NCBI RefSeq assembly: GCF_001544615.1
Contig: NZ_FCNV02000019.1
Location: 1-52,647 of the forward strand
From: Caballeronia concitans
GTDB lineage: Bacteria > Pseudomonadota > Gammaproteobacteria > Burkholderiales > Burkholderiaceae
Direction of reading: 5' to 3'
Length of the DNA stretch: 52,647 nt
Position 1 is the stretch's first letter, and every line of letters starts with the position of its first letter. The position numbers were made by a program, and so were the translations under genes. Shown piece by piece: positions 7,477 to 22,099 of this stretch. The notes beneath the pieces were generated by a model. The model did not search any database, was not told the origin of the DNA, and saw only the letters and a program-made list of their open reading frames with translations.

Positions 7477-8529
7477 TCAGCGCGTCATCAACAAAGCCCG
7501 CGCCTCGTCGCTCGAAAGGAGACCGCGGCCCCGGCGGTTCGCAGCACTCGTCGCATAGACTTCCCCACGCGCGTGCGTGATGCCGAGCGGCGCGAAGCCG
7601 TTGGCCGGATTGAACGCCATCTTGTCGATGTTCGCTTCGTCCTCGCGCGAAGGCTGCGACGCGATTTCCAGCTCGCCAATCCGAATGACCGGCGACTTCC
7701 AGGCAACCGACGCGTCGTTCACCGGGGTCGTGGCTTCATCGACGAAAAGCTGCACGCCGAGCCACCAGCCGACCGGTCCTTCTTCCAGACGGTTGAACAA
7801 ATCCGCGCGCAGATAGTTCTCGCCCTCGCCCGTGGCCTGCGTGCCAGAGGGCGTCGAATCGAAATGATGCAGCGAATATTTGATCGCCGCCGGGCCAAGC
7901 CGCACGACCGATCCCCAGAAATCCTCCAGGGTGACGCTCGCGACCGGATGCAGCCCGACCTGTTTGACGAGAATCGCGACGCTGTCCACGCCCTCCCCGA
8001 GATGGAGCTCGCCGGTCCGAAGCTCGTGTAGCGTCTGCCTGAGACCGCCGGCGACGCCGTCCGCGAGTTTCGCGACGATGATGTCGGATACGGCCATGAA
8101 CTGTTTCGCGTCGCGCGCATGTGAACGGCCGCCTTCGTTGGTCATCAGGAGATCTGTTTCCACGCCGTCGTCGGTGAAGAACTTGATCGCGATGCCGCGC
8201 ACGTCAGATTCGGTGTCGGCCTGCGGACAAGGCTGACCGTTCGAAATCCGGCACGCGACGCGGTACAGAATCGGTCCGGCCGAGGCATCGCGCTTCGCGA
8301 AGGGGCCGAACCTGACCGTATCGGGGATGTCGTCTGCAATGCGAAGCGTGCCGAAAGCGCCGAGCACCTGTTTCTGATGCTGCGCCCGATCGACTTGTCC
8401 GCCCAGACCGGTATGCCGGCTGCGGGCGAGTTTCGCCTGCTGCTCGCCGATTTTCGTGACCAGCTTCGTGATGGTGGTCGCGTCGTCCGGCTTGTCTGTC
8501 CAACCTGTTCCGTCATTGCCTGCGCTCAT
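7477..8529 (-). CDS. Catalase-like haem protein, atypical active site
   Basis: A 350-residue protein with the catalase-fold segments HQKQVLGAFGTLRIADDI, SNGQPC and SDVRGIAIKFFTDDGVETD. It matches the shorter catalase-related family found beside cytochromes rather than true catalases. In canonical catalases the distal His sits in VHAKG and the distal Asn in a GNN(T/S) motif; here the matching positions read AQHQKQ and TNEGG, so activity may differ (peroxidase-like or structural). No signal peptide is seen. GGAGGTGAATC precedes the ATG at 8529. It is the last gene of a three-gene minus-strand operon after a lipoprotein-like protein and cytochrome c, which points to peroxide handling or redox stress. 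Confidence 0.75.
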   Translation of the reverse strand: MSAGNDGTGWTDKPDDATTITKLVTKIGEQQAKLARSRHTGLGGQVDRAQHQKQVLGAFGTLRIADDIPDTVRFGPFAKRDASAGPILYRVACRISNGQPCPQADTESDVRGIAIKFFTDDGVETDLLMTNEGGRSHARDAKQFMAVSDIIVAKLADGVAGGLRQTLHELRTGELHLGEGVDSVAILVKQVGLHPVASVTLEDFWGSVVRLGPAAIKYSLHHFDSTPSGTQATGEGENYLRADLFNRLEEGPVGWWLGVQLFVDEATTPVNDASVAWKSPVIRIGELEIASQPSREDEANIDKMAFNPANGFAPLGITHARGEVYATSAANRRGRGLLSSDEARALLMTR

Positions 8530-8991: not shown

Positions 8992-9001
8992 GGCGAAGCA
9001 C

Positions 9002-9409
9002 TCAGTGCTTGCGATCGGCGAGGCGGCCGACGAACTTCCAGCCCTGATCGCGCATCCACACGTAAGTGAAGCCCGTCGGGCCGTCGATGAACACGGTCAT
9101 CGGTCGCTCCGCGCCGGACGCCCCCTTGGGCGGCTCAGTGGAAGCGGGCGTGATCCGCGCTTCCGTTGGCTTGAGGCTCGCGTCGCGGTCATCGAGCCGC
9201 CAGCCGTCTTCATCGATATAAGTCAGGCGCGACGTTCCGCCGGACGGCGCGAGAAGCGTGAGCGTAAGCGGCCCGCCGCCGTCGACGCCGATCGCGCGGG
9301 CGTCGGCCGTGTCCGCGCTGGTCGCCGCGACGCCGGACTCGCAGGCCGCGCCGAACATGAGGATGCCGAGCGCGAGGAGCATCGCGCACTTCGTTTGATG
9401 GGCTTTCAT
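9002..9409 (-). CDS. Exported hypothetical protein, possibly a lipoprotein
   Basis: A 135-residue protein. A frame upstream exists, but the ATG at 9409 has a perfect AAGGAGGT site just before it. The N-terminus MKAHQTKCAMLLALGILMF is a signal sequence, and FGAAC resembles an imperfect lipobox (Gly at -3), with Cys at about 28. The mature part contains GPTGFTYVWMRDQGWKFVG. It has no recognised domain. It is first in the operon with cytochrome c and the catalase-like protein, so an envelope redox role is inferred. Confidence 0.6.
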   Translation of the reverse strand: MKAHQTKCAMLLALGILMFGAACESGVAATSADTADARAIGVDGGGPLTLTLLAPSGGTSRLTYIDEDGWRLDDRDASLKPTEARITPASTEPPKGASGAERPMTVFIDGPTGFTYVWMRDQGWKFVGRLADRKH

Positions 9410-9670
9410 TTCGAATACCTCCTTCCTGGCCGCGTCGTGGCGGCCGTCCATGTGCCGAGACACGTGAGGCGCAGCGCGCCTGTGTAGTCATACGGAGAAG
9501 AGAGCGTTGCCTCGACGAATGTGAGGCCAAGAGAGCCGCAGGCGCGGGCGTTGATGTTTTCGTTGGCCCTTTCGCTGCAGGATGAGTGTTTGTCGTGTGG
9601 AGACACCGCCACGCGTGGCCGTTCGAAGGCCGTCTTGTGATGGCTTCACTATGAAGCGAACGGCCGTTGG

Positions 9671-9704
9671 AAAAAACCACGCATTCGCGGGGAAAACACC
9701 CCGC
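9671..9704 (-). terminator. Possible terminator after the HEAT-repeat gene
   Basis: On the minus strand GCGGGG-TGTTTT-CCCCGC forms a perfect 6-bp hairpin (9687-9704), with a run of six Ts at 9676-9671 after a ten-base gap. The position suits termination of the long minus-strand operon ending at 9848. The gap before the T-tract weakens the call. The rest of the gap 9410-9847 holds one relic (9759-9845). Confidence 0.35.
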
Positions 9705-9758
9705 CAAAGGAGGACTGCGTAATGGACGGCGCCCTTGTGCGGGGCGCAGGCACGGCAT

Positions 9759-9845
9759 GCCACCGCGCTGTTCTTCATCACGCATGATCCCAATGTCGTG
9801 GGCCATCTGCGCGATCGGATGCTCGTGTTCAAGTCCGGACGCGGG
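9759..9845 (+). pseudogene. ABC transporter ATPase C-terminal relic
   Basis: A 29-codon plus-strand segment reads ATALFFITHDPNVVGHLRDR followed by MLVFKSGRG. This matches the H-loop region (ITHD) and the following strand of dipeptide/oligopeptide-type ABC ATPases. No Walker A, signature or Walker B motif is nearby, and the frame runs into the antisense of the HEAT-repeat gene. It is the remains of a deleted gene at the end of the flavoprotein operon. Confidence 0.55.
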
Positions 9846-9847
9846 CG

Positions 9848-10843
9848 TCAGCCGTGCCGCGTGCCGATCTGCGCAATCGCTATGCGCGCTGCCTTGCGCA
9901 CTTCGGGATCGCCGTCTTTCAGCGCGGCTTCGAGTACCGGAAGCGCATCGATGTCGCCGAGTTCGCCGAGCGCGAGCGCCGCTTCCTTGCGCACGTTGCT
10001 GATCGGATAGGTCAAGAGTTCCGCGACCGCAGGCGTGCTCGTCGCATCGCGCAACCGGCCCAGCGCGCGCGTGGCCTGCAACGTCACTTGCCAGTAGTCG
10101 TCGGCAAGCGCGCCTTCGAGCGCGGCGCGCGCCGACAAGAGGCGCAATTTGCCGAGCGTGGCCGCCGCTTCCTCGCGCACGCGCCACTCGCCGTCGTGAA
10201 GCGCGGAGGTCAACGTATCGAGCACGGTGTCGTCCGTGGCGAAGCCCAGCGCGCCGATCGCGGCATGCCGCACTTCCGGCGATGCATCGTCGCGCGCAAG
10301 CGATGCGAGTCGCGGGAGCGCTTGCGCATGACGAAGCCAGCCGAGCACGCCGACCGCTTCGCGGCGCACATTCGCCGATGCATCCGCCAGCGCTTCCAGT
10401 GCGGGCGTTGCCGCCGCCGGAAGACGCAGCTCGCGCACGCCGCGCAGCAACGCGGCGCGTGCGTAAGGTTCGTCATCGGCATCGGTGAGATGGTTCAGGA
10501 CGCGCGCGCCCGCTGCCGCGTCCTTCAACGCCGTGAGGCTTTCCGCCGCCGCATTACGTACGTTCGCGTCGAGCCGCGCGTCCTTGATGGCGTCGCACAA
10601 CGCATCGACGACATCCGCGGATTCCCATGCCCCGAGCCGCTGTGCCGCTGTGCGCTGCACTGCGGCGTCCGCATCGTGACGAAGCGCGTGGATCAGTGCG
10701 GGCAGCCACGCTTCGTCTTCCAGTTCGGCCGCTTCGATCACGGCGAGGCGGCGCACGGCGGGGTCGGCATCAGCGAGCCGAGCGGCGAGAGCGGCATCGT
10801 CGGAATCGGTGAATGAATCGAAGAGAGGCGATGCTTGAGTCAT
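9848..10843 (-). CDS. HEAT-repeat protein of the flavoprotein/ABC operon
   Basis: A 331-residue soluble protein built almost wholly of HEAT/PBS-lyase-like repeats of about 31 residues. Repeated blocks include VRREAVGVLGWL, VRHAAIGALGF, VREEAAATLGKL and VRKEAALALGEL. It has no signal peptide, membrane segment or catalytic motif. The ATG at 10843 overlaps the ATPase stop in an ATGA tetranucleotide, so it belongs to the same transcript and is probably translationally coupled. HEAT proteins are scaffolds; CpcE/PBS-lyase relatives help attach cofactors. Here an assembly or docking role for the ferredoxin/flavoprotein pair or the transporter is inferred, not shown. Confidence 0.85.
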   Translation of the reverse strand: MTQASPLFDSFTDSDDAALAARLADADPAVRRLAVIEAAELEDEAWLPALIHALRHDADAAVQRTAAQRLGAWESADVVDALCDAIKDARLDANVRNAAAESLTALKDAAAGARVLNHLTDADDEPYARAALLRGVRELRLPAAATPALEALADASANVRREAVGVLGWLRHAQALPRLASLARDDASPEVRHAAIGALGFATDDTVLDTLTSALHDGEWRVREEAAATLGKLRLLSARAALEGALADDYWQVTLQATRALGRLRDATSTPAVAELLTYPISNVRKEAALALGELGDIDALPVLEAALKDGDPEVRKAARIAIAQIGTRHG

Positions 10844-11706
10844 GAGGCGGTCTGCACTGAGCGATTGAAACGAACGCTCGCCGTCGCGTGATCGGCGGCG
10901 GGCGACGCGATGGGTTGATGGCGAAGCAGCGCGAGGCAACGGCGCTTGAGCGCGATGAATTCCGGCTCCGTAACGAGATCGCGCGTCTCGCCGCGCTCGC
11001 GCGGACGCGCGAACGGCACCTGCAAGTCTTCCAGCACCGTACCGGGGCTCGCGCTCATCACCAGGATGCGATCTGCGAGAAAAAGCGCTTCGTCGATGTC
11101 GTGCGTGACGAAGACCACGGTCGGCTTGCGCTCGCTCCAGACATCGAGAAGAAGGGCCTGCATCATCGCGCGCGTTTGCGCGTCGAGCGCGCCGAAGGGC
11201 TCGTCCATCAGCAGGACGCGTGGCGCAATCAGCATGGCGCGTGCGATTTCCGCGCGCTGCTGCATGCCGCCTGAAAGTTGCGCGGGATAGCGGTCCGCGA
11301 AGGCGCCGAGGCCCACGCGCTCCAGTAAGGCGCGTGCCTGCCGATGCCTTTCGCGCTTGCCGATGCCCTGCATCTTCAGGCCGAACGCCACGTTGTCGAG
11401 CGTTTTGCGCCACGGTAGCAAGGTATGCTGCTGGAAGACCATGCCGCGCTCGGGATGCGGCCCGTCGATGCGCTTGCCATCGAGTGTCGCCTGACCCGCA
11501 CTCGTCGCGACATGTCCTGCGAGCGCCGCGAGCAATGTCGACTTGCCGCAGCCGGACGGCCCGAGTATGCAGACGAATTCGCCGGCCTCGATGGTCATGT
11601 TCACATCGCGCACGGCGGTGAACGCCTGCGGTCCATCGCCCAGCGTGAGCGCGACGTGCTCGAGCGTTACCCTGCCTGCGCTGCCTTGCGGATTCCGAGA
11701 AGTCAT
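10840..11706 (-). CDS. ABC transporter ATP-binding protein (nitrate/sulfonate/taurine type)
   Basis: A 288-residue ATPase of the SsuB/TauB/NrtD group. Walker A is GPSGCGKST at 49-57, the signature is LSGGMQQR, Walker B is VLLMDEP and the H-loop is FVTHD. The start at 11706 is chosen by a GGGAG site and the ATGA overlap with the permease stop. A C-terminal tail of about 40 residues after the conserved domain is longer than usual. It energises uptake with the permease at 11703-12515 and the binding protein at 12523-13929. The substrate class (organosulfur, nitrate-like or other small anion) cannot be read from the ATPase itself. Confidence 0.9.
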   Translation of the reverse strand: MTSRNPQGSAGRVTLEHVALTLGDGPQAFTAVRDVNMTIEAGEFVCILGPSGCGKSTLLAALAGHVATSAGQATLDGKRIDGPHPERGMVFQQHTLLPWRKTLDNVAFGLKMQGIGKRERHRQARALLERVGLGAFADRYPAQLSGGMQQRAEIARAMLIAPRVLLMDEPFGALDAQTRAMMQALLLDVWSERKPTVVFVTHDIDEALFLADRILVMSASPGTVLEDLQVPFARPRERGETRDLVTEPEFIALKRRCLALLRHQPIASPAADHATASVRFNRSVQTAS

Positions 11707-12515
11707 GGACGGCTCCCGCTTGTAAGCCACGGTGTCAGACGCCGGCCCGCCGCGCGAACGAGCGCGCTGCTTCCCATTCCGAGCAGGCCGATCAACAGCA
11801 TGCCGACGACGACCTGCGGATATTGCTGCACCGTGTACGACTGCCACGTGTAATAGCCGATGCCGAATTGCCCGGAGATCATCTCCGCGGTCACGAGACA
11901 GAACCAGGAGGTGCCCATGCCGATGGCAAGGCCGGTGACGATGGCGGGTGCAGCGCCTGGCAATACGACTTCACGAAGAATCGTCAAGTTGCTCGCGCCC
12001 AGGCTTTTAGCGGACGATACGAGCCGCGGCTCCACGCCTTCGACGCCGTGTATCGTGCCAAGCAGGATGGGAAAGAACGCGCCGGTGAAGGTGATGAAGA
12101 TCATCGACATTTCTGACGAAGGGAACATCAGGATCGCCAGCGGAATCCATGCGACGGCGGGAATGGGCCGCAATACCTCGAGCGGCGTGAGCAAGCACAG
12201 GCGCGCAAACTGCGAGCGTCCGATCGCGACCCCGAGCACAATGCCGCTTGCCGCCGCCACGCCATAGCCCGCCGCGATGCGCCGCAGGCTGCTCGACAAG
12301 TCCGCGAAGAGCTTGGGCGAGTGCGCCAGATCGACGATGGCCGCGATGGTATCGGCTGGCGTCGGCACGTTCGCGAACGTGATGAAGCCGAGGTTCCAGC
12401 GATGCGTCGTCGCGAGATGCCAGAGCAGCAACGTCAACGCGAGCGATGCCCACTGCACGCCGGCACGCGTGCCGCGATGGCGAAGCAGGGGAACGGAAGA
12501 AACGAGCGTCGCCAT
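11703..12515 (-). CDS. ABC transporter permease (nitrate/sulfonate/taurine type)
   Basis: A 270-residue inner-membrane permease of the BPD_transp_1 fold with about six membrane helices. The EAA-type coupling loop is visible as SSAKSLGASNLTILREVVLP, followed by GLAIGMGTSWFCLVTAEM. The ATG at 12515 lies 7 bases after the binding-protein stop, and its own stop overlaps the ATPase start. It forms a homodimeric channel with the ATPase. The frame continues upstream, but that would overlap the binding-protein gene. Confidence 0.9.
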   Translation of the reverse strand: MATLVSSVPLLRHRGTRAGVQWASLALTLLLWHLATTHRWNLGFITFANVPTPADTIAAIVDLAHSPKLFADLSSSLRRIAAGYGVAAASGIVLGVAIGRSQFARLCLLTPLEVLRPIPAVAWIPLAILMFPSSEMSMIFITFTGAFFPILLGTIHGVEGVEPRLVSSAKSLGASNLTILREVVLPGAAPAIVTGLAIGMGTSWFCLVTAEMISGQFGIGYYTWQSYTVQQYPQVVVGMLLIGLLGMGSSALVRAAGRRLTPWLTSGSRP

Positions 12516-12522
12516 GCGCGCC

Positions 12523-13929
12523 TCAGCGATTCGCAAGTGCGGTCGGCTGCCGCGCGGCGGCGAAATCGAGCACTTGTCCACCGTGCTGCGCCGCCCAGGC
12601 TTGCGCGCGATCCTTCAGCAGGAATGCGTTCAGTTGCCCGTCACCGCTTCTCGCGAACCACGCCTGATTGCCGAGCAGCTTGATGCCGCTCTCGCGATCC
12701 TGCGCATAAAACGCGCGTACTTGCTTCCCTTCGCTTTCCAGCTTGCCCATCTGCTGCACGGCTTCTTCCGGCGACGCGTAGCTGCGCACCCGCGCTTCGC
12801 CGCGCACCCAGATCTGTGCGACGCGCTCCGTCCGCGCGATTGGCTTGCCGGTGCGCGCATCATTCGCAACAAGCGGCGTTTGCGCATAGTTGCGCAAGGC
12901 GGCGTCGTAATCGAGATGTTCAGCCTTGAAGGCCGCGCGCAGATAGCTGTCGTCGATGAACGTGTTCGCATTCAGATCGCCGTCGGCTCGCTTGAGCAGC
13001 TTCAGCGTATCGAACGATGTCTGCACCGCCTTGCGGTATTCGGGCTTCCATGTGAGATCGCGCGTCTGCAGACCGAGCGGCCCGTGGAACAAGTAATCGA
13101 CTTCGGGCTCGATGCCCGTCACTTTGGCGATCAGTTCACTGTATCGCTCCGGCTCCGCGGCGAGCAGACGGTTCGCTTCGATTACCGCGCGCAGATAGGC
13201 GATAACGACTTCGGGATACTTCTGCGCATAGTCCTTCTCGACAAGCGCGCCATGCAGGGTCGGCGCATTGGCTTGCGAGCCGTCGTAGATCTTGCGCGCG
13301 AAGCCTCGATACGGAAACAGTTCGGCGAAGGGCACGAAGTCCGCGTGCGCCTCGATCTTGTGCGTCTGCAACGCCGGTCCGGCTACTTCGGGCGGCTGGG
13401 CGACGATGTTCACGTCGCGTTCGGGATCCCAGCCTTGGGCCGCGATCGCCCGCAGCAACATGCCGTGCGAGGTCGAGGCGAACGGCACCGAGATAGTCTT
13501 GCCCTTGAGTTCGGAGATCGACTGTACCGGAGAGTCGACCGGCACGACGATCCCGTTGCCGCTGCCGCGCACGCTGCCCGAGAGCACGCTGATGAAGACG
13601 CTGCTCTTGCCCGCCTTTTGATTCGCGACGCCGTTGAGCACGCCAGGAAAATCCGCCATCGAGCCGAAATCGAGCTTGCCCGCGACCATTTCGTTCGTGA
13701 TGGGCGCGCCGCTCGTGAAGTTCTTCCATTGAATGTCGTACTGCGCGTCTTTGTACTTGCCGTCGTGCGGCAAGTACTTGTCGAGCAGATGCAGTTCGCG
13801 GATTAGCGCGCCGCCCGCAGCCGTGTTGATGGTCGTGTCCTGCGTGCCGATGGCGACGCGAATGGTTTCCGCCTGCGCATGCGCGCCAAACAGCGCGACG
13901 GTCAGCGCGAACAAGAGCGTTCGTTTCAT
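12523..13929 (-). CDS. ABC substrate-binding protein with NosL-like C-terminal extension
   Basis: A 468-residue periplasmic binding protein, about 100-130 residues longer than usual for the SsuA/TauA/NrtA family. A signal peptide is cleaved after about residue 20 (HAQA). The binding fold includes KLDFGSMADFPGVLNG and the KGKTISVPFASTSHGMLLRA segment. The extra C-terminus (371-468) contains VRAFYAQDRESGIKLLGNQ and AQAWAAQHGGQVLDFAAA, resembling the end of NosL, a copper-delivery lipoprotein of nitrous oxide reductase. The NosL metal-site cysteine motif is missing. A GAGGAATCC site precedes the ATG at 13929. It sits between the ferredoxin and permease genes, which ties uptake to the redox pair. 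The fusion call rests on recalled similarity. Confidence 0.8.
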   Translation of the reverse strand: MKRTLLFALTVALFGAHAQAETIRVAIGTQDTTINTAAGGALIRELHLLDKYLPHDGKYKDAQYDIQWKNFTSGAPITNEMVAGKLDFGSMADFPGVLNGVANQKAGKSSVFISVLSGSVRGSGNGIVVPVDSPVQSISELKGKTISVPFASTSHGMLLRAIAAQGWDPERDVNIVAQPPEVAGPALQTHKIEAHADFVPFAELFPYRGFARKIYDGSQANAPTLHGALVEKDYAQKYPEVVIAYLRAVIEANRLLAAEPERYSELIAKVTGIEPEVDYLFHGPLGLQTRDLTWKPEYRKAVQTSFDTLKLLKRADGDLNANTFIDDSYLRAAFKAEHLDYDAALRNYAQTPLVANDARTGKPIARTERVAQIWVRGEARVRSYASPEEAVQQMGKLESEGKQVRAFYAQDRESGIKLLGNQAWFARSGDGQLNAFLLKDRAQAWAAQHGGQVLDFAAARQPTALANR

Positions 13930-13939
13930 TCTGGATTCC

Positions 13940-14185
13940 TCATCGAAGAAGATACGGTATATCGACATGCACCGCGTTGGTTGGGCAATCGCGTTCGCAA
14001 GGCATGCAGTACCAGCATTCGTCGAACTTCATGAAAGCCTTGCCGGTGTCGGGATCGATCGCCAGCAGATCCATCGGACAGACATCGATGCAGACTGTGC
14101 AGCCTTTATCGGCAATGCACTTGTCTTCATCGATCATGACGGGAAGGCTCGTGCGCAAATGCGCCTCACGAGGAACGAGGGCCAT
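13940..14185 (-). CDS. AprB-like dicluster 4Fe-4S ferredoxin
   Basis: An 81-residue ferredoxin with eight cysteines for two [4Fe-4S] clusters: Cys23, 29, 32, 36 (C-x5-C-x2-C-x3-CP) and Cys57, 60, 63, 67. The wide first spacing (CIADKGCTVCIDVCPMDLL) and the ECWYCMPCERDCP block resemble the beta subunit of adenylylsulfate reductase. It lacks the long C-terminal tail of AprB that wraps the alpha subunit. AAGGAGAG precedes the ATG at 14185. It follows the flavoprotein stop by 11 bases, so the pair is probably a cytosolic complex in which the ferredoxin relays electrons to or from FAD. Confidence 0.88.
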   Translation of the reverse strand: MALVPREAHLRTSLPVMIDEDKCIADKGCTVCIDVCPMDLLAIDPDTGKAFMKFDECWYCMPCERDCPTNAVHVDIPYLLR

Positions 14186-14196
14186 GCAGTCTCTCC

Positions 14197-15933
14197 TTAG
14201 GCAGCGACCGGTTGCGCGCTGCGGGCGACGCGCAGGCGCGAGTACGCGCCGCGCTCGGTTTCGTCGATGGGAACCACGTAAGGCTCAACGGCCTTCTTGA
14301 ACGAGGTCATGCGCCCCGATGCATCCTTCTTCAGATGCGCGTGGCAGAACCAATCGTCATCGTTTCGTTGAGGAAAATCCACGCGATGGTGATAAAGCCC
14401 CCATCGGCTTTCCGTGCGATACAGCGATGCGCGGGCAGCCATCTCGGCGCAATCGAGGATTGCGGCGACTTCGGCGGCGCGCATGAGTTCATGTGCATCG
14501 GCAGCGCGCAGCTGCGCGATGTCGTCGCGAATCTCCGCGAAGCGTTGCAGTCCGATCTCCATGCGGCGCGTGGCTTTGGGCGGCTGAAGATAGTCGTTCA
14601 CGAAGCGTCGCAGCTTGTATTCGACTTGCGCGGGTGGAAGGCCGCGTTCGCGTTCGAGCGGCGCGAAGACGCGAGCGCGTTCCGCTTCGACTTGCGATGC
14701 ATCGAGTGACGGCAGCTCCCTGCCTGCCACGTGCGAAGCAGCGTCCTCTCCCGCGAACCAGCCGTAAGTGAACGCGCCGAGCATGTAGTTGTGCGGTACG
14801 GCGGCCATGTCGCCTGCTGCATAGAGTCCTTGCACCGAGGTGCGTGCGCTTTCATCGACCCACACCCCCGATGCGCTGTGTCCGCTGCACAAGCCGATCT
14901 CCGAGATGTGCATTTCGATCATGCGCGTCCGATAGTCGTTGCCGCGACGCGCGTGAAAGCGCCCGCGGCTCGGGCGCTCGTTCGTATGCAGAATGGTTTC
15001 GATGGTCTGGATAGTTTCCTCGGCGAGATGATCCAGCTTGAGGAACACCGGACCGTTGCCGCTCTGGAGTTCCTGATAGAACTCCCACATCATCTGCCCG
15101 CTCCAGTAATCGCATTCGATGAAGCGCTCGCCTTTGCCGTTTGCCGTATAGCCGCCAAGTGGTCCTGTCACATACGCGCATGCAGGACCGTTGTAATCCT
15201 TGATCAGTGGATTGATCTGGAAACATTCGAGATTCGCGAGCTCGGCGCCCGCGTGATAAGCCATCGCGTAGCCATCGCCGGCGTTGGTCGGATTTTCGTA
15301 TGTGCCCATCAGATAGCCGGACGCCGGCAGGCCCAGACGACCAGCCGCGCCGCAGCAGAGAATCACCGCCTTTGCGCGAATGACGTAGAAGTGCGCGGTT
15401 CGGCAATCGAAGCCCATCACGCCCGCAATCTCACCGTGGGTCCCGGTCAGAAGACGCGTCGCGACGACGCGATTCGTGATCTCGACACGGGTGCGCTTCA
15501 ATTGCCGGTAGAGCACTTTCTTGACGTCGTGACCTTCCGGCATTGGCAATACGTATGCGCCCATGTGATGCACCTTGCGCACCGCGTAATCGCCCGTCGG
15601 GTCTTTCTCGAACTTGACGCCCCAACGATCGAGCTCTTCGATCGTCTTGAAGCTGTGCTTCGCATACGCATGGATCGTGGCCTGGTTGACGATTCCGTCG
15701 TTGGCCACGGTGATCTCCTTCACGTACTGCTCGGGCGTCGCATGTCCGGGGATGATGGCGTTATTCAGGCCGTCCATGCCCATCGAGATTGCGCCGCTGC
15801 GTTTGACGTGGGCTTTATCGATGAGCAGGACGCGCAGCTTCGGGTCGCGCTGCTTGGCCTTGATCGCAGCCATCGGGCCGGCTGTGCCGCCGCCGACCAC
15901 GACGATGTCGTATTCGAGTTCGTGTGTCTGCAT
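14197..15933 (-). CDS. AprA-like FAD-dependent reductase subunit
   Basis: A 578-residue flavoprotein of the fumarate reductase/succinate dehydrogenase/AprA superfamily. The FAD Rossmann motif VVVGGGTAGP lies at 11-20, the RSGAISMGMDG loop at 45-55, GHSASGVWVD at 351-360 and YAAGDMAA at 371. The C-terminal ESRWGLYHHRVDFP and DDWFCHAHLKK blocks match AprA closely, better than FrdA or SdhA. In AprA an arginine of the ARFKDGYGP segment binds the nucleotide; here the equivalent reads LIKDYNGP (241-249), so APS is probably not the substrate. It is first in the operon, behind a palindromic operator at 15989-16002. The ATG at 15933 gives the normal N-terminus. Confidence 0.85.
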   Translation of the reverse strand: MQTHELEYDIVVVGGGTAGPMAAIKAKQRDPKLRVLLIDKAHVKRSGAISMGMDGLNNAIIPGHATPEQYVKEITVANDGIVNQATIHAYAKHSFKTIEELDRWGVKFEKDPTGDYAVRKVHHMGAYVLPMPEGHDVKKVLYRQLKRTRVEITNRVVATRLLTGTHGEIAGVMGFDCRTAHFYVIRAKAVILCCGAAGRLGLPASGYLMGTYENPTNAGDGYAMAYHAGAELANLECFQINPLIKDYNGPACAYVTGPLGGYTANGKGERFIECDYWSGQMMWEFYQELQSGNGPVFLKLDHLAEETIQTIETILHTNERPSRGRFHARRGNDYRTRMIEMHISEIGLCSGHSASGVWVDESARTSVQGLYAAGDMAAVPHNYMLGAFTYGWFAGEDAASHVAGRELPSLDASQVEAERARVFAPLERERGLPPAQVEYKLRRFVNDYLQPPKATRRMEIGLQRFAEIRDDIAQLRAADAHELMRAAEVAAILDCAEMAARASLYRTESRWGLYHHRVDFPQRNDDDWFCHAHLKKDASGRMTSFKKAVEPYVVPIDETERGAYSRLRVARSAQPVAA

Positions 15934-15988
15934 GCTCGTAAAGACGTGGCGCCACCGCCAGCAGAAGCGCATCGGCCATCTGGCGCAG

Positions 15989-16018
15989 CTTGTTATGACA
16001 AGTTAGGACCAGATTGTA
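15989..16018 (-). promoter_or_regulatory. Promoter and GntR/HutC-type operator of the flavoprotein operon
   Basis: CTTGT-TATG-ACAAG at 15989-16002 is a perfect inverted repeat with a 4-base centre, the shape expected for HutC-family GntR regulators (TGT...ACA half-sites). A minus-strand TACAAT (16018-16013) makes a good -10 box just upstream, so the operator overlaps the likely transcription start. The -35 is weak (TTCCCG at 17-base spacing). The only neighbour of the right family is the GntR gene at 16094-16870. Confidence 0.6.
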
Positions 16019-16093
16019 TGAGCCGATGTGCGCAGCGGGAATCAATCGTTTCTGCTTTGCTTTCGCGTGCGCCGAATAACGGCTCAGCGGCGT

Positions 16094-16870
16094 TCAGACG
16101 TGCCGACGGCGGGCGGGACTCGCGGCGCGTGCCCGGTCGATGCGCAGGCGGTATTGGAACGTGTCGCCGCGAAAGTAGAGGTATTCGAAATCCACGGGCC
16201 GTCCGTTGGCATCGTGCGTGAGGCGCTCGATGCGCAGCAGCGGTTCACCTGCGGCGATGGCGAGTGCTCGCGCGATGCCGGGTTTTGCCGCGACGGCATC
16301 GATGGCGAGATCCGCGCTGCCCAGCGGCAGCGCGCAGTCGTTTTCGAGAATGAGGAAAATGTCGCGTGTGACGAGATCCGCGCGTTCGAGTTGACGCCCG
16401 AGCAGTTCCGGCAAGTACGTCATCTCATATGAAACCGGTGATCGATTGAGCAAGCGCACCCGATGAATCTCTGCGACTCGCGTTTGCTCCGGCAGCGAAA
16501 GCCGCGCGGCCACTTCCGCTGGCGCCGGTACGAATCGAAACTTCACTACACGGTTGATGATCTCGTGACCGCTGCGCGACATCGCTTCGGCAAAGCCCTG
16601 CAAGGACGTGATGTTCTGGAAGGCCTTCGGTTGCGAGACGAAGGAGCCTTTGCCGTGCACCTTGAAAATGAGCCCTTCCTTCTGCAGATCTCCGAGCGCC
16701 TGACGAATCGTGATGCGGCTGACGTCGAAGATCGTCTGCAGTTCGCTTTCGGACGGCATGCGACTGTGCGGCGGATAGCGACCATCGAGAATGCCCGAGC
16801 GTAGGGCGTCCTTGATCTGAGCGTAAAGCGGAACGTGGGAATCGGGGGAAACTTTGAGACGAGGCGGCAT
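16094..16870 (-). CDS. GntR-family (HutC/UTRA) transcriptional regulator
   Basis: A 258-residue regulator. The winged helix-turn-helix occupies about 10-78, with SESELQTIFDVSRITIRQAL and the wing GKGSFVSQP. An effector-binding UTRA domain follows (about 95-245), including SLQGFAEAMSRSG and VSYEMTYLP. The ATG at 16870 gives family-typical length although no clear ribosome site precedes it. It lies 160 bases upstream of the flavoprotein gene in the same direction, so it may be transcribed through. It probably represses the 9848-15933 operon via the palindrome in that gap, with release by the substrate or a product. Confidence 0.88.
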   Translation of the reverse strand: MPPRLKVSPDSHVPLYAQIKDALRSGILDGRYPPHSRMPSESELQTIFDVSRITIRQALGDLQKEGLIFKVHGKGSFVSQPKAFQNITSLQGFAEAMSRSGHEIINRVVKFRFVPAPAEVAARLSLPEQTRVAEIHRVRLLNRSPVSYEMTYLPELLGRQLERADLVTRDIFLILENDCALPLGSADLAIDAVAAKPGIARALAIAAGEPLLRIERLTHDANGRPVDFEYLYFRGDTFQYRLRIDRARAASPARRRHV

Positions 16871-16976
16871 GGAGGGCTGTTGCGCGTCAGCCGGCCGGGC
16901 AGGGCGCCGTTTGCAGTTTGAATTGCGGAGGATTATAGCCACGCCTCGGCTAGTCCGACGGCGCGATGGTCGCGCA

Positions 16977-17115
16977 GTCACCGAGATCATGCCGGTCGGG
17001 GTTCTCGCCCGCGTTTAGCCGGGCGGCGGCGTGTTCGGCGGATTCACACCGGCTGTCTCGACGTATCTCGTCCACGTCACGCACGACAAGGCCGCACCCG
17101 GCAATTGGAAAAGCG
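16977..17115 (+). pseudogene. MFS transporter C-terminal relic
   Basis: In the 314-base gap 16871-17184 one plus-strand frame reads VTEIMPVGVLARV, a TAG at 17016, then PGGG and VFGGFTPAVSTYLVHVTHDK, followed by AAPGNW. This matches the EIMP...FGGFTP...STYLI.VTG.KAAPG region of the metabolite:proton symporter (KgtP/ShiA/citrate) MFS group. The stop and the shortened spacing show decay and deletion. The rest of the gap holds nothing recognisable. Confidence 0.65.
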
Positions 17116-17184
17116 GGCCGTCAGATGCAAGTCCGCGCGGCGTGCGTGATCCGTTGTCGATAAAGCGGCGATCGAAGCGCAGCT

Positions 17185-17955
17185 TCAGGCGGCATCGGTG
17201 AAAAACGTCTCGACAATATCGTCCCGCAACTGCGCGACCTTGCGATCCCCGAGCTTCCGCGGCCTCGGCACCGCGACCTCCACCACTTCCCCGATACGCC
17301 CCGGCCGCGCCTGCATCACCACGATCCGGTCCGACAGCAGCACGGCTTCCTCCACGTCATGCGTGACGAGCACCATCGTGATGCGCTCATGCTCCCATAT
17401 GCGCTGCAATTCGAGCTGCAGGCGGCTACGCGTGAGCGCGTCGAGCGCGCCGAACGGTTCATCGAGCAACAGGAGACGCGGCCGGGTCACGAGCCCGCGC
17501 GCAATCGCCACGCGCTGCGCCATGCCGCCCGACAACTGATGCGGGTAATGCCGCTCGTGGCCCTTCAATCCGACGAGTTCAATATGCTCCGCCACCGCGC
17601 GCGCCTTCTCGGCCTTCGACAGTGGCGCGTTGCGCAATGCCACCGCGACGTTCTGCGCGACATCGAGCCACGGAAACAGCCGATGATCCTGAAACACGAT
17701 GCCGCGCGACAGATCCGTCGTCACGACGCGCTCACCGCCGAAATCGATCTCGCCGTCGTAATCGCCATCGAGGCCCGCGATGAGCCGCAGCAACGTCGAC
17801 TTGCCGCAACCGCTCGCCCCGACGATGCTCACGAACTCGCCGCTCGCGATCGACAGATCGATGCGATCGAGCACCGGCGCTGCCGCATCGCCAGCGAAGC
17901 GCTTGCTCACATGCCGCAGCGTCAGGCCGCCGTCCTGCACTATTTGTGTCGTCAT
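17185..17955 (-). CDS. ABC transporter ATP-binding protein (AtsC/SsuB type)
   Basis: A 256-residue ATPase with Walker [10 protein letters not shown], signature LSGGMAQR, Walker B LLLLDEP and H-loop LVTHD. It ends with the family-typical basic tail ([17 protein letters not shown]). The ATG at 17955 follows a GAGGAGAATCC site. It is last in a five-gene minus-strand operon with two permeases, a binding protein and an AtsK-like dioxygenase, so it should energise import of sulfate esters or related organosulfur compounds. Confidence 0.9.
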
Positions 17956-17968
17956 TTCCGGATTCTCC

Positions 17969-18751
17969 TCAAGCCACGCGCGACGCGCCGAGCCAGCGCC
18001 GCTGCACGCCGCGCGCGAAGGCATTCAACGCCCACCCCGTCAAACCGACCACGATCACGCCGAACACGACGAGATCCATACGAAACTGTTCGCTGCCATC
18101 CACGAGCGTATTGCCGATCCCGCTGCCCGCGACGAGCAGATACTCCGCGCCGAGCGTCGCGAGCCACGAATAGATGAGCGCGAGATAGACGCCCGTGAAG
18201 ATGGACGGCAACGCGGCGGGCAATACGACATAGGCGAGTGTCTGCAGCCTGCCATAGCGATACGCGCGCGCGACATCGAGCCAGCTCGCGGGCACGGCGC
18301 GGATGCCGTCGCTCGTATGCATCACGACGGGCACGAGCGCGGCGAGCGAAAGGAACACGACCTTCGCGACATCGCCCAAGCCGAACCACACGGAAATGAG
18401 CGGAATCCACGCGAACAGCGACACTTGCTTGAACGTGTTGAAGCTCGGCGCGATCGCACGATTGGCGAGCTTCGATATGCCGAGCAGCGCGCCGAGCGCA
18501 AGCCCGAGACTCGTGCCGATCGCAAAGCCCGTCAACTCGCGCGCAAGCGAGGCGGACAACGCACGCGCGAGCGCCCCGCTGCGGACCTGATCGACGGCCG
18601 TATTCCACACCTGTGCGGGCGAAACCATCACGCCGCGCCCCACTTGCGCATCGCGCGACACGTACCACCACACGGCGAGCGCGACTATCGGCAACACGAG
18701 TCCGCGCCACGATCCCTTGACTGTTCCCGCTTCCCAATCCAGCGTCGACAT
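17969..18751 (-). CDS. ABC permease, second of a pair (SsuC/AtsB type)
   Basis: A 260-residue permease with about six helices. The coupling loop is [20 protein letters not shown] and the conserved [19 protein letters not shown] follows. GAGGAGGAGCC precedes the ATG at 18751, 9 bases after the upstream permease stop. The operon holds two different permeases, so the channel is probably a heterodimer, unlike the single SsuC of the E. coli sulfonate system. Confidence 0.9.
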
Positions 18752-18760
18752 GGCTCCTCC

Positions 18761-19585
18761 TCAATTGGCGCGGCCGCGTTGCAGCTTGCGCTCGAATGCA
18801 TCGAGCAGGCGATCGGCCGCATAGCCGATTGCACCGACGATGAGCACCGCGGCCAGCACGAGATCGAGCTGAAAGAGCTGTCGTCCATACACGATCAGAT
18901 AACCCAGCCCTTCCGACGACGCGACGAGCTCCACGACCACGAGCGTCAGCCACGCTTTCGTGAACGCGAGCCGCACGCCCGTCCCGATGACGGGAATCGC
19001 GGACGGCAAAGTCACGCGCGTGATGACTTGCCAGCGCGTATAGCGATACACCGACGCGACTTCCTGCAACGCGCGCGGCGTGCCGCGAAAGCCTTGCAGC
19101 GTCGAGAGCGTGACGGGCACGAGCGCCGCATGCCCGATCAGCAGATACTTCAGGGGCTCGCCGATGCCGGCGACGATCATCAGAAACGGCAGCCATCCGA
19201 GCACGGGCACCTGCACGATCGCGTTGAAGCTCGGCAGCACGTAGGCTTCCAGCGTGCGCGACAGACCGAGCAATCCGCCGAGCACGATGCCGAGCAGCAC
19301 GCCGCCGCCGAACCCGACAGCGGCGCGCGTCGTGCTTGCCAGCAGGTGCGTCCACAATTCGCCGCTCTTCGCGAGCGCGCCGAGCGTTTCGAAAACGAGC
19401 GCGGGCGGCGGCAACACTTGCGCGGAGATCCAGCCGTAGTGCGAGCCGAGCACCCACAGCAACGCGCACACGCTGGGCACGAGCCACGGCAACGCAGTCC
19501 AGCCGATCGTGCGCCACGTATCCGTCGATGAAATCCCGCGCGCACGATCCGCAGGCTGAACCACACGCGTCAGTGCATTGGCCAT
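18761..19585 (-). CDS. ABC permease, first of a pair (SsuC/AtsB type)
   Basis: A 274-residue permease of the same fold as its neighbour but clearly diverged. The coupling loop reads ALQEVASVYRYTRWQVITRV and the C-terminal ELVASSEGLGYLIVYG. Its start directly abuts the binding-protein stop (19586). Together with the 17969-18751 product it should form the membrane channel. Confidence 0.9.
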   Translation of the reverse strand: MANALTRVVQPADRARGISSTDTWRTIGWTALPWLVPSVCALLWVLGSHYGWISAQVLPPPALVFETLGALAKSGELWTHLLASTTRAAVGFGGGVLLGIVLGGLLGLSRTLEAYVLPSFNAIVQVPVLGWLPFLMIVAGIGEPLKYLLIGHAALVPVTLSTLQGFRGTPRALQEVASVYRYTRWQVITRVTLPSAIPVIGTGVRLAFTKAWLTLVVVELVASSEGLGYLIVYGRQLFQLDLVLAAVLIVGAIGYAADRLLDAFERKLQRGRAN

Positions 19586-20671
19586 TTACCGGTTCTCCGC
19601 AAGACGTTCGCCGGAAGGCTTGCCCGCTGCATCGAAACGCGGCCAGTATGCTTCGAGCTTCAGCGACTTCAGCGCCTGATCGAGATACTTCGGCTCGAAC
19701 CATCCATTCACGCTGACGGGCTGACGAATCAGATTCAGACGCAATGCGTCATCGGCGACGGCCTGATAGCGCGCGACCAGAAACGGATCGATGAGCGGCG
19801 ACATGCGGTCCTTCATCGGCTGATTCGCAAACTCGGACGACCACGATTCGACGGGCACGCCGCTCTTCGCCCACAACGCGAAAAGCGCATTGCGATTGGC
19901 TTCGTCGGAGGACCATTGCGCGGCCTGCACCACGGCGGTCACCACCTTCTGCACCGTGTCGGGATGCGCGCGCTCGTAGTCTTCGAGCACGAGCAGATGC
20001 GCTTGCCGCGTGAACTGCACGCCGTCGTCGCGCGATGCGTAGACGATCTTCGCAAGCCCCTGACGTTGCAGCTTGAAGAGCGAGTAGTCGAGGAACACGG
20101 CATCGACGCCCTTCGATGCCAGCGCGGCCTGCGCAGCGGCGGTATCGAGATTGATGACGCGCAGATCGCGTTCGCTGAGGCCGTTTTCCTTCAACACGTT
20201 ATCGGCGACGAGTTGCAGATTCGTGCCGCGAAAGATGCCGACGCGCTTGCCTTTCAGATCCTTGACGCTCTTGATGCCGGAATCCGGCGGCACCGCGAGA
20301 TACACGCCCGTGCGCACGTTCGACGCGAGCAGCAGATGCGTCTTCAATCCGTTCGCGCGGCCGAGCACAGAGGGCAGATCGCCCTGATACGCGAAGTCGA
20401 GCTGCTTGTTCGCGAGCGCCTCGTTGACCGCGGGCCCCGCGCCTTTGAAGAAGATCCACTCGACCTTGATGTGCTCGGGCTGCAACGCATCTTCCACGCG
20501 ATGCTGCAATAACGCGGTCGCGGCGGGCGATCCGCCGAACGTCGGCGGATCGCCGGTGCCCTGCTGCGCGACGCCGATGCGCACCACGGCCGGATCGGCG
20601 GCATGCGCGGGACCGATGAGCGCGGCGAACAGCGTCGCCGCGCCGACGAAGAGCTTGAATCGTAGTGTCAT
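19586..20671 (-). CDS. Aliphatic sulfur compound-binding protein (AtsR/SsuA type)
   Basis: A 361-residue periplasmic protein with a signal peptide (cleaved after about residue 24, AHAA). The SsuA-like fold is seen in IKVEWIFFKGAGPAVNEALA, NKQLDFAYQGDLPS and DLKGKRVGIFRGTNLQLVA. Linkage to an AtsK-like dioxygenase suggests alkyl sulfate esters rather than taurine as the ligand. The start codon has no strong ribosome site and lies 67 bases downstream of the dioxygenase gene, after a hairpin. Confidence 0.88.
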   Translation of the reverse strand: MTLRFKLFVGAATLFAALIGPAHAADPAVVRIGVAQQGTGDPPTFGGSPAATALLQHRVEDALQPEHIKVEWIFFKGAGPAVNEALANKQLDFAYQGDLPSVLGRANGLKTHLLLASNVRTGVYLAVPPDSGIKSVKDLKGKRVGIFRGTNLQLVADNVLKENGLSERDLRVINLDTAAAQAALASKGVDAVFLDYSLFKLQRQGLAKIVYASRDDGVQFTRQAHLLVLEDYERAHPDTVQKVVTAVVQAAQWSSDEANRNALFALWAKSGVPVESWSSEFANQPMKDRMSPLIDPFLVARYQAVADDALRLNLIRQPVSVNGWFEPKYLDQALKSLKLEAYWPRFDAAGKPSGERLAENR

Positions 20672-20695
20672 CGTGCAATGAGAAAGAGTGGATCG

Positions 20696-20715
20696 CCGGC
20701 GATGTCACTCGCCGG
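20696..20715 (-). other. Hairpin between dioxygenase and binding-protein genes
   Basis: CCGGCGA-TGTCAC-TCGCCGG is a perfect 7-bp stem with a 6-base loop in the 67-base gap 20672-20738. It is not followed by a T-run on the minus strand, so it is more likely an mRNA processing or stability element than a terminator. Such an element could set different expression for dioxygenase and transporter. Confidence 0.35.
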
Positions 20716-20738
20716 TGCATGCGGTATCGCGCGACGCG

Positions 20739-21677
20739 TCACGCCGTGCGCGTTTCCTGTTTGACGATGCGGCTCTTGCGCCCGTCGATGCCTACGGGCA
20801 CATCGCCGTGCACGGTCGCGCGGCGCACGACGCGATGCGCGTCGGCGTAATCGGCCACCGCGTAATGCTGGGTCGCGCGGTTGTCCCAGATCGCGACATC
20901 GCCTTGCGTCCAGCGCCAGCGCACGGTGTTTTCGAGGCGCGTGACGTGATCGTGAAACAGCTCGGCGAGACGATCCGAATCGCGCTGAGAAAGTCCGATG
21001 AAGCGCTGCACGAAGTGACCCAGCACAAGCGTGCGTTCGCCCGTTTCCGGATGCACGCGCACGACCGGATGCTCCGTTTCGTAGAGCGTCGATGTGAACT
21101 GCTTGCGATACTCGCGTTCGGATTCCGTATCGGGCACGTTGCGCGTCGCGGCATAGTCGTAGGCGTTCGAATGCAGCGCCCAGAGCTTGTCGGCGAGATC
21201 GCGCAGCACTTCCGGCAGGTTTGCATACGCGGCGGCCGTGTTGGCCCATACGGTGTCGCCGCCTGCTGGCGGAATCACGACGCCGCGCAGAATCGAAATC
21301 TTCGGATAGGCATCGACGAACGTGACGTCCGTATGCCATGAATTCGCGCGCGTGCCGTGCTTCGAATCGAGCTCGAGCAGACGGCTTCCGCTCGAAAGCG
21401 ACGGCACGGTCGGATGCGCGACGGTCTCGCCGAAACGCGCGGCGAAGGCTTCCTGCGCGGCGTCGTCGAGATGCGACTGACCGCGGAAGAACAGCACCTT
21501 GTGTTCGAGCAGCGCATGGTTGATCGCGGCGACGGCGTCATCGTCGAGATCCGCGGAAAGCGTCACGCCGCGCACTTCGGCGCCGATGCGTCCGCCGATC
21601 GGGCGCACCTGGAACGGTTCATTCGACGTGACAGGGGCAAGCGTGGACTCGGCGGCGAGCGTGGGAAGTTCGGGCAT
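20739..21677 (-). CDS. atsK: Alpha-ketoglutarate-dependent alkylsulfatase (AtsK-like, TauD family)
   Basis: A 312-residue Fe(II)/2-oxoglutarate dioxygenase. Metal ligands are His115 and Asp117 (SWHTDVTF) and distal His271 (WDNRATQHYAV); arginines near 282-286 bind 2-oxoglutarate. The long matches LFFRGQSHLDD, WHTDVTFVDAYPKISIL and LENTVRWRWTQGDVAIWDNR fit AtsK of Pseudomonas putida better than TauD. AtsK oxidises alkyl sulfate esters, giving an aldehyde and free sulfate. GGAG precedes the ATG at 21677. It is first in the operon with a two-permease transporter: import followed by desulfurisation under sulfur starvation. A taurine or other sulfonate substrate is a less likely alternative. Confidence 0.82.
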   Translation of the reverse strand: MPELPTLAAESTLAPVTSNEPFQVRPIGGRIGAEVRGVTLSADLDDDAVAAINHALLEHKVLFFRGQSHLDDAAQEAFAARFGETVAHPTVPSLSSGSRLLELDSKHGTRANSWHTDVTFVDAYPKISILRGVVIPPAGGDTVWANTAAAYANLPEVLRDLADKLWALHSNAYDYAATRNVPDTESEREYRKQFTSTLYETEHPVVRVHPETGERTLVLGHFVQRFIGLSQRDSDRLAELFHDHVTRLENTVRWRWTQGDVAIWDNRATQHYAVADYADAHRVVRRATVHGDVPVGIDGRKSRIVKQETRTA

Positions 21678-22099
21678 CGAAAGTCTCCGTTGGTTTGCGT
21701 TGGTCGGATGCAGACCGCATTGAATGTGACGGAAACATTGAAGCATCGTCGCGACGTATTACCAACGAAGCGTTTCGGCTATGCATATCGCTGCAATCCC
21801 GCGATGCTTTCCCGCAGTTCCCTGCTGGAGCCGCCGTCGGACTGCCGGAATTCGCTCGCAGCTCTGTCTGCCGGAACGCGGGCAACCAGCCGCGCTCGGG
21901 TTTTCCCGCGACAACCCTCTCGTGCTCGATGAAAACGTGCACGAGCTACGCGAGATGGTGCGAATACTGAGCCGAAATACAGAAGAAGGGGCGGCGCGGA
22001 GCACTGGCGCGTGGGAGTTGAAAGCGAAGCGCAAGTCGGGGCTTCTTGCTAGACGTTGGGACCGCGCGTGCTAGTGGCAAGCGCGGCTCGGATGACCAG
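21678..22099. other. 422-bp gap with no confident gene
   Basis: This must hold the promoter of the AtsK operon, probably within about 100 bases of 21677. Short plus-strand frames exist, one reading NPLVLDENVHELREMVRIL near 21913-21970, but none has a ribosome site or recognised motif. No terminator or repeat was seen. Confidence 0.4.

Follow-up and report, generated by a model that had tools for sequence, protein, structure and literature searches.

AsfAB is defined by being needed for the use of aryl sulfonates under sulfate limitation. Another described system close to the one considered here, the 3'-phosphoadenylylsulfate (PAPS) reductase of M. thermolithotrophicus, is an AprAB-type enzyme put to assimilatory use; it is an alpha2beta2 protein with FAD and two [4Fe-4S] clusters, for which an attack of flavin N5 on sulfur is proposed (PMC10322725; this and the other papers named below are cited for excerpts of their text). 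Here we compare with these systems a gene module of Caballeronia concitans (RefSeq assembly GCF_001544615.1), encoded on contig NZ_FCNV02000019.1, positions 1 to 52,647; this whole stretch of 52,647 nucleotides is called the window. A first-pass annotation had claimed a minus-strand operon of an AprA-like flavoprotein, a ferredoxin, the binding protein, permease and ATPase of an ATP-binding cassette (ABC) importer and a HEAT-repeat protein, behind a GntR regulator gene, and the open reading frames of the window together with family scans bear out this order. The GntR gene lies upstream, its 3' end 160 bases from the flavoprotein gene; the gaps after the flavoprotein gene are 11, 10 and 7 bases, followed by two 4-base ATGA overlaps.

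We tentatively read the module as a self-contained, substrate-induced import-and-reduce unit that most likely releases sulfite from an organosulfur compound. A sulfur compound is favored as the substrate class by the type of importer and by the sulfite-resistance genes that some copies have as neighbors. The parts of the module all come from known superfamilies; their composition is, as far as the literature was searched, uncharacterized, and it is misleadingly named. No published operon of like composition turned up in searches for it among open-licence papers, and the excerpts of four transcriptome and proteome papers (PMC5979394, PMC5748707, PMC7661421, PMC8557817) contain no link to the module genes.

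Conservation of the module

The module is common rather than strain-specific, and the grouping of its genes exceeds chance. The flavoprotein scores over the NF006131 cut-off in 107 of 299 genomes of the Burkholderiaceae, where some copies are broken or split, and for the Pseudomonadota in 15 of 299 genomes, the window genome included, representing 9 of 153 genera; restriction to one strain is thus contradicted. All 15 Pseudomonadota flavoproteins score above 1058 bits, and the family was observed in three phyla. By these sequence scores the NF006131 flavoprotein is a tight, patchily spread family. A protein search of plasmid records with the flavoprotein returned 55 records, 54 of them at an identity of at least 59% (6 of these cover about one quarter to one half of the query). 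Their hosts include Burkholderiales, rhizobia, Methylobacterium, Methylocystis, Acinetobacter, Acidithiobacillus, cyanobacteria and actinobacteria, among others; the remaining record, from Ilyobacter, has 27.7% identity and is annotated as adenylylsulfate (APS) reductase alpha. Three genomes of the same genus (G081, G277 and G292) carry flavoprotein genes that are broken or split, with internal stops or in two pieces, which suggests recent loss.

In a first locus set, the best 80 of 595 matched stretches (L004-L083), the ferredoxin accompanies the flavoprotein in 79 of 80 loci and the HEAT-repeat protein in 77 of 80; two of the loci, L036 and L043, end early. At a Pseudomonas locus (L072), GntR and the flavoprotein are present, and tblastn did not find the ferredoxin or HEAT-repeat genes alongside. 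Because these 80 loci are the closest relatives only, a second, spread set of 31 loci was taken (L137-L167), made up of 14 other Pseudomonadota hits and 17 Burkholderiaceae hits, one or two per genus and hand-picked rather than random. There, tblastn found flavoprotein, ferredoxin and HEAT-repeat protein in all 31 loci, and the full set of the module's own importer genes in 23. The core and, less regularly, the importer recur across genera, classes and phyla. The importer was rejected as a core part, as its three genes were not found in the other eight loci (L150, L152, L157-L159, L161, L164 and L165). A DUF971/GBBH-like_N protein was found by tblastn with the module in 28 of the 31 loci and was likewise rejected as a core part: it is not in L151, L155 or L156, and the only match in the window genome lies on another contig, C18.

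The proposal of a dedicated import-plus-redox system draws support from this recurrence of the genes as a unit, from a putative operator at the unit and from a natural fusion of flavoprotein and HEAT-repeat protein, the last two described below. Annotations of the 15 plasmid neighborhoods viewed, the only places where sat, qmo and hdr were looked for, contain none of these genes.

Regulator and putative operator

The regulator (16094-16870, minus strand) has GntR and UTRA domains (Pfam, 1.7e-19 and 2.3e-37), the latter ligand-binding, and this combination places it in the HutC type. A palindrome, CTTGTYATRACAAG (CTTGTTATGACAAG on the plus strand), stands at 15989-16002 between the GntR and flavoprotein genes. 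It was first noticed by eye in the window and the consensus was then tested; an inverted-repeat search of two intergenic stretches, with arms of at least 7 bases, did not show this palindrome, whose arms are 5 bases long. The pattern CTTGTNNNNACAAG has a single exact match in the window, at 15989-16002, and none in 100 shuffles. Matches of at least 13 of 14 positions, in the 250 bases before either the GntR or the flavoprotein gene, were found in 74 of the 76 first-set and 19 of the 21 second-set loci that bear GntR, counts that are not independent since many loci are close relatives. Such a match occurred in 1 of 1600 (first set) and 0 of 620 (second) 500-base stretches drawn at random from these loci. 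Among loci without a detected GntR gene, 2 of 4 and 1 of 10, respectively, have the palindrome at this threshold. The best site (at least 12 of 14) lies ahead of GntR in 61 loci of the first set and 18 of the second, and ahead of the flavoprotein gene in 14 and 2; in Caballeronia loci it lies between the two genes as in the window, 28-71 bases before the flavoprotein match.

A whole-genome search of 24 genomes found the exact palindrome once each, at the module, in 13, and no exact copy in the other 11. Next to the module, on the minus strand at 17185-21746, is a second sulfonate-type ABC operon (referred to as Ssu/TauD) of an ATPase, two permeases, an SsuA-like binder and a TauD-family dioxygenase; no other exact palindrome is present in the window, hence none at this operon. 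With one exact copy, at the module, in each of those 13 genomes, GntR appears to serve the module and not the neighboring Ssu/TauD operon. We consider the conserved palindrome at the start of the unit a putative operator of the HutC-type GntR. An Rfam search of window positions 9000-18000 gave no matches, and a sigma-70 pattern scan of 15900-17200 gave no promoter-like matches. In alphaproteobacterial modules (L125, L131-L133, L135 and L143-L149, the last group assigned by similarity), GntR is absent from the position directly upstream, as is any exact or near copy of the palindrome; a gene of the Crp/Fnr family is nearby in these loci.

Flavoprotein family and active site

The flavoprotein (14197-15933, minus strand, 578 aa) is an FAD protein of the AprA/FrdA family and a clear member of NF006131/PRK08275, with 1133.4 bits over residues 1-573 against a cut-off of 587; FAD_binding_2 matches at 3.6e-34 (Pfam). 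For the module pair, the aprA model TIGR02061 gives 185.9 bits (cut-off 641.75) and the aprB model TIGR02060 35.4 bits (cut-off 135.65); PRK06854 gives the flavoprotein 307 bits (cut-off 557). The flavoprotein is single-copy in the window genome, where two further matches have just 25 and 28% identity. The nearest chain in the Protein Data Bank (PDB) is 8a8o_A, PAPS reductase alpha (1.6e-81), and the next is AprA 1jnr_A (2.1e-59).

Active-site residues were read by eye in a profile alignment with PDB chains, for which we assume the residue numbers and roles in AprA and SdhA, Gln145 excepted. AprA Asn74 is kept as Asn57, Trp234 is replaced by Tyr212 and Arg265 by Leu243 in 87 of 87 members, and the loop that holds Glu141 and Gln145 in AprA (loop 120-133; Lys120-Arg121-Ser122 in PAPS reductase) reads KVHHMGAYVLPM. 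His352 probably corresponds to AprA His398, an assignment that goes by way of the PAPS reductase row, AprA being unaligned in this part. Asn57, Tyr212, Leu243, His342 and His352 are invariant in all 87 flavoproteins, 6 of which come from more distant groups. Of the residues of succinate dehydrogenase (SDH) and fumarate reductase, SDH His354 has a kept counterpart in His342; Asn241 stands at the place of His242, a glycine at that of His45, and there is no arginine at the places of Arg286 and Arg399. With these replacements the protein is probably not an APS, PAPS or fumarate enzyme; it has conserved residues of its own. The earlier description as AprA-like holds for the family and probably for the fold, and fails for the active site, where Arg265, Trp234 and the APS loop are replaced.

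Ferredoxin, HEAT-repeat protein and importer

The ferredoxin (13940-14185, minus strand, 81 aa) is a Fer4 dicluster protein for two [4Fe-4S] clusters whose 8 cysteines are kept in 86 of 86 homologs, and flavoprotein and ferredoxin together have the AprAB make-up of an FAD protein with a two-cluster ferredoxin. PDB matches include AprB 3gyx_B (166 aa), PAPS reductase beta 8a8o_C (104 aa) and AprB 1jnr_B (150 aa), and two other ferredoxin-type chains outscore them. The AprB-like core lacks the C-terminal tail of AprB (150-166 aa).

In Tsukamurella, flavoprotein and HEAT-repeat protein form a single 893-aa protein, encoded beside GntR, ferredoxin and ABC genes. The HEAT-repeat protein of the window (9848-10843, minus strand, 331 aa; HEAT_2 2e-56) matches the C-terminal part of the fused model NF010374 (3.7e-19, profile positions 633-896) and that of the Tsukamurella protein (E 2e-5, with the caveat that repeat proteins align easily). 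The natural fusion ties the HEAT-repeat protein to the flavoprotein; the scaffold role named in the first-pass annotation would be a step beyond it.

The importer is of the sulfonate/nitrate type. Its substrate-binding protein (12523-13929, minus strand, 468 aa) is NMT1_2/SsuA-like (PF13379, 1.4e-11): it scores above the cut-off of NMT1_2 and under that of SsuA_fam, and falls short of the SsuA and TauA models (112.9 of 163.5 and 83.2 of 304.25 bits). The nearest solved proteins are the taurine-binding 6ssy (1.8e-17) and SsuA 2x26 (1e-16), then a nitrate-transport one. The permease (11703-12515, minus strand, 270 aa; BPD_transp_1 3.7e-22) obtains its best E-value from a nitrate permease model, still under the cut-off of that model, and the ATPase (10840-11706, minus strand, 288 aa; ABC_tran 5.8e-33) scores 276.6 bits with the TauB-like NF008421, cut-off 357. 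The extra domain first reported for the binding protein stands as a NosL-like C-terminal extension (12526-12822, minus strand, its start at about residue 370 set by eye), with a weak PF05573 match at residues 431-458 that remains under the gathering score (E 0.0014, 19.4 bits versus 24). At an E limit of 10, weak PF05573 matches occur in 15 of 16 binding-protein members (best E 0.00044).

Neighboring genes and amino acid content

Ferredoxin-NADP reductase and FdxA, searched for by tblastn with genes from Methylobacterium and A. caldus, were found in 6 and 4, respectively, of the 31 spread loci, with one or the other in 7, all within L143-L150; FdxA is also present in the A. caldus locus. These neighbors suit a role in electron supply in one part of the family. 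On A. caldus plasmid pTcM1, beside FdxA and the module, is a gene for a 1153-aa FAD protein (L123:10574-14035) that has only a Pyr_redox_2 match at E 1e-5; it is a possible alternative electron donor.

In Salmonella, resistance to sulfite depends chiefly on YeiH (PMC12880088). The gene lies at most 10 kb from the module in 5 of 32 genomes (0.16 expected) and 3 of 17 genera (0.09 expected); tblastn had already shown YeiH in those five loci, one weakly, before this test was made. YeiH and TauE/SafE both occur in two cyanobacterial loci and TauE/SafE in Aquabacterium. TauE/SafE was rejected as a regular partner, despite the cases in Pseudanabaena, Leptolyngbya and Aquabacterium: among the matches listed, none is 10 kb or less from the module in the 32 genomes. 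In an Acinetobacter record, a TSUP gene is located 6.6 kb upstream. TauD is at most 10 kb away in 3 of 32 genomes (0.39 expected) and 2 of 17 genera (0.19 expected), and at most 25 kb away in 8 of 32 (0.92 expected) and 4 of 17 (0.46 expected); the TauD cases include the window, and the 25-kb distance was picked after the list had been inspected. The YeiH and TauD proximity counts were made by hand from match lists.

Other neighbors are Mrp/ApbC-like Fe-S carrier genes, present in all three cyanobacterial loci viewed. In both Methylocystis and Nostoc (L127 and L122) the module has GNAT acetyltransferase and amidase genes close by, and amidases also occur in Pandoraea; the GNAT and amidase genes are a possible hint at the substrate chemistry. 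In the window, a catalase-related protein of 350 aa is encoded at 7480-8529 (minus strand), with the Pfam Catalase match (7.7e-12) confined to residues 48-145.

A low content of cysteine and methionine has been noted before for sulfur-acquisition proteins (PMC7661421). In the Ssu/TauD operon, Cys+Met amounts to 1.57% in the ATPase, 1.16 and 0.73% in the permeases, 0.56% in the SsuA-like protein and 0.00% in the TauD-like protein (311 of 335 residues counted). Within the module, the binding protein (0.86%, n=67) and the HEAT-repeat protein (0.54%, n=82) are low, and the permease (3.45%, 63 loci), ATPase (3.70%, 61 loci) and flavoprotein (4.99%, n=87) are not. The background consists of flanking genes rather than the whole proteome: recurrent flanking open reading frames average 2.63% (n=453), flanking ABC permeases 0.99-2.82% and flanking ABC ATPases 0.85-5.0%.

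Proposed function

The import-and-reduce unit could operate as follows. An imported compound would bind GntR, which would then leave the palindrome. Low-potential electrons may flow from NADPH through ferredoxin-NADP reductase and FdxA, where these are encoded nearby, to the ferredoxin subunit and on to FAD, and the flavin N5 would attack and cleave an oxidized, anionic substrate. The most likely product would be sulfite, from a sulfate ester, sulfamate or sulfonate. The HEAT-repeat protein may replace the missing AprB tail and hold flavoprotein and ferredoxin together. A setting in carbon or nitrogen catabolism or in detoxification would be likelier than sulfur starvation. Where genes for ferredoxin-NADP reductase, FdxA and YeiH neighbor the module, as at some copies, they point to a reductase that is driven by ferredoxin and frees sulfite. 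In its most specific form, which we regard as doubtful, the proposal would make the module a reductive organosulfur lyase: an imported organic sulfate, sulfamate or sulfonate would be cut directly to sulfite by flavin chemistry of the APS reductase type, with ferredoxin electrons, neither ATP activation nor an oxygenase, and the HEAT-repeat protein as a clamp.

Several findings weigh against the release of sulfite by such a unit. With Arg265, Trp234 and the APS loop replaced, N5 chemistry on sulfur is conjectural. Ferredoxin-NADP reductase and FdxA were not found by tblastn in 24 of the 31 spread loci, the YeiH linkage is limited to 3 of 17 genera, and the listed TauE/SafE matches include none within 10 kb in the 32 genomes. 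Binders of the NMT1/SsuA type take non-sulfur ligands too, and the permease and ATPase are not poor in sulfur amino acids in the way of sulfur-starvation proteins. It is possible, if somewhat unlikely, that the same architecture and electron flow serve a nitrogen- or carbon-based anion, such as a nitro compound, an N-oxide or an activated alkene. An active site unlike those of APS, PAPS and fumarate enzymes, with invariant residues specific to the family, would agree with such a substrate, as would the lack of sulfur economy in permease and ATPase, the nitrate permease model and, at a few loci, neighboring genes for amidases and GNAT proteins; the closest solved binders are nevertheless those for taurine and alkanesulfonate, with the nitrate-transport one after them, and YeiH and TauE are linked to the module at some loci. 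The flavoprotein might also work in the oxidative direction, dehydrogenating the imported compound while the ferredoxin passes electrons on. We think this unlikely: the superfamily is shared with SDH and L-aspartate oxidase and the equivalent of SDH His354 is invariant, yet His242 is an asparagine, the two SDH arginines have no equivalents, and ferredoxin-NADP reductase and FdxA at several loci fit electron supply, though reverse flow is possible.

Scavenging of organosulfur compounds under sulfur starvation, as for the neighboring Ssu/TauD operon, would agree with TauD lying near the module more often than expected and with binding and HEAT-repeat proteins that are poor in Cys and Met. Protein sulfur content nevertheless disfavors it, if indirectly, for the permease, ATPase and flavoprotein lie at 3.45-4.99% against 0.0-1.6% in the Ssu/TauD operon, and the exact palindrome is absent from that operon as from the rest of the window. 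Since neither permease nor ATPase is low in Cys and Met, detoxification or the use of carbon or nitrogen seems the better fit, and scavenging is quite improbable. A true APS/PAPS reductase (AprAB) of sulfate assimilation, suggested by the top PDB matches, is more improbable by far: the aprA and PRK06854 scores are low (186 versus 642 and 307 versus 557 bits), the arginine, the tryptophan and the APS loop are replaced, the AprB tail is absent, and APS requires no dedicated importer.

We give equally little credence to the module being the AsfAB aromatic-sulfonate system under another name, which was the first strong lead. Clusters of asf genes consist of a reductase, a ferredoxin, a binding protein and an ABC transporter (PMC4267179), and the genera with reports of asfA include Burkholderia, Cupriavidus and Pseudomonas (PMC9694294). 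In C. metallidurans CH34, AsfA and AsfB are named as Rmet_4334/5 (PMC2864759). The NF006131 search of one genome, G276, gave a best match of 3.6e-35 and none over the cut-off. We take G276 to be CH34, which would be expected to carry asfAB. At the interpolated place of Rmet_4334 it encodes a different FAD protein, then an iron-sulfur membrane protein, presumably a TcuA/TcuB-like pair; the TcuA-type model NF006130 has no match over its cut-off in the window genome. AsfAB was rejected as the identity of the module on this comparison with the CH34-like genome.

The reading as a unit that imports and reduces an organosulfur compound matters in several respects. The flavoprotein family, spread over three phyla and about a third of the Burkholderiaceae genomes, is named as a respiratory enzyme, and its active site argues otherwise. 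Many bacteria from soil or associated with plants carry the module; should it produce sulfite, they would have an oxygen-independent means of organosulfur cleavage, and an organosulfur lyase module, if true, would be a counterpart, independent of oxygen, to SsuD, TauD and the sulfatases. As the module is small and has one local regulator, one palindrome per genome (where exact) and a purifiable binding protein, its substrate can be sought directly.

Comparison with known systems

The module importer is of the same superfamily as SsuABC/TauABC in binding protein, permease and ATPase. It differs in that all three proteins score under the Ssu/Tau cut-offs, the binding protein has the extra NosL-like stretch, and permease and ATPase are not sulfur-economized. 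The gene set described for the AsfAB aryl-sulfonate system resembles the module (PMC4267179), whereas the flavoprotein family is absent from the CH34-like genome. NF006131/PRK08275, of which the window flavoprotein is so clear a member, bears the name "fumarate reductase/succinate dehydrogenase flavoprotein subunit". This name is misleading, with the SDH catalytic residues mostly lost and the regular partners being a ferredoxin and a HEAT-repeat protein, usually with an importer. The fused flavoprotein-HEAT model NF010374/PRK13800 (898 positions), which the Tsukamurella member matches with 1568 bits (cut-off 1196), corresponds in the window to two separate genes, each under the model cut-off.

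AprAB (1jnr/2fja) has in common with the module pair an FAD protein with two [4Fe-4S] clusters, Asn74 and a histidine at the inferred His398 place; it differs in Arg265 (Leu243 here), Trp234 (Tyr212 here), the Glu141/Gln145 loop and the AprB tail, absent in the module ferredoxin. The excerpted account of the M. thermolithotrophicus PAPS reductase mentions no HEAT-repeat protein or importer (PMC10322725). This enzyme (8a8o) likewise joins an FAD alpha subunit of the same superfamily to a two-cluster, ferredoxin-type beta subunit, and where it has the Lys120-Arg121-Ser122 loop the module flavoprotein has KVHHMGAYVLPM, with the arginine and tryptophan of the site replaced.

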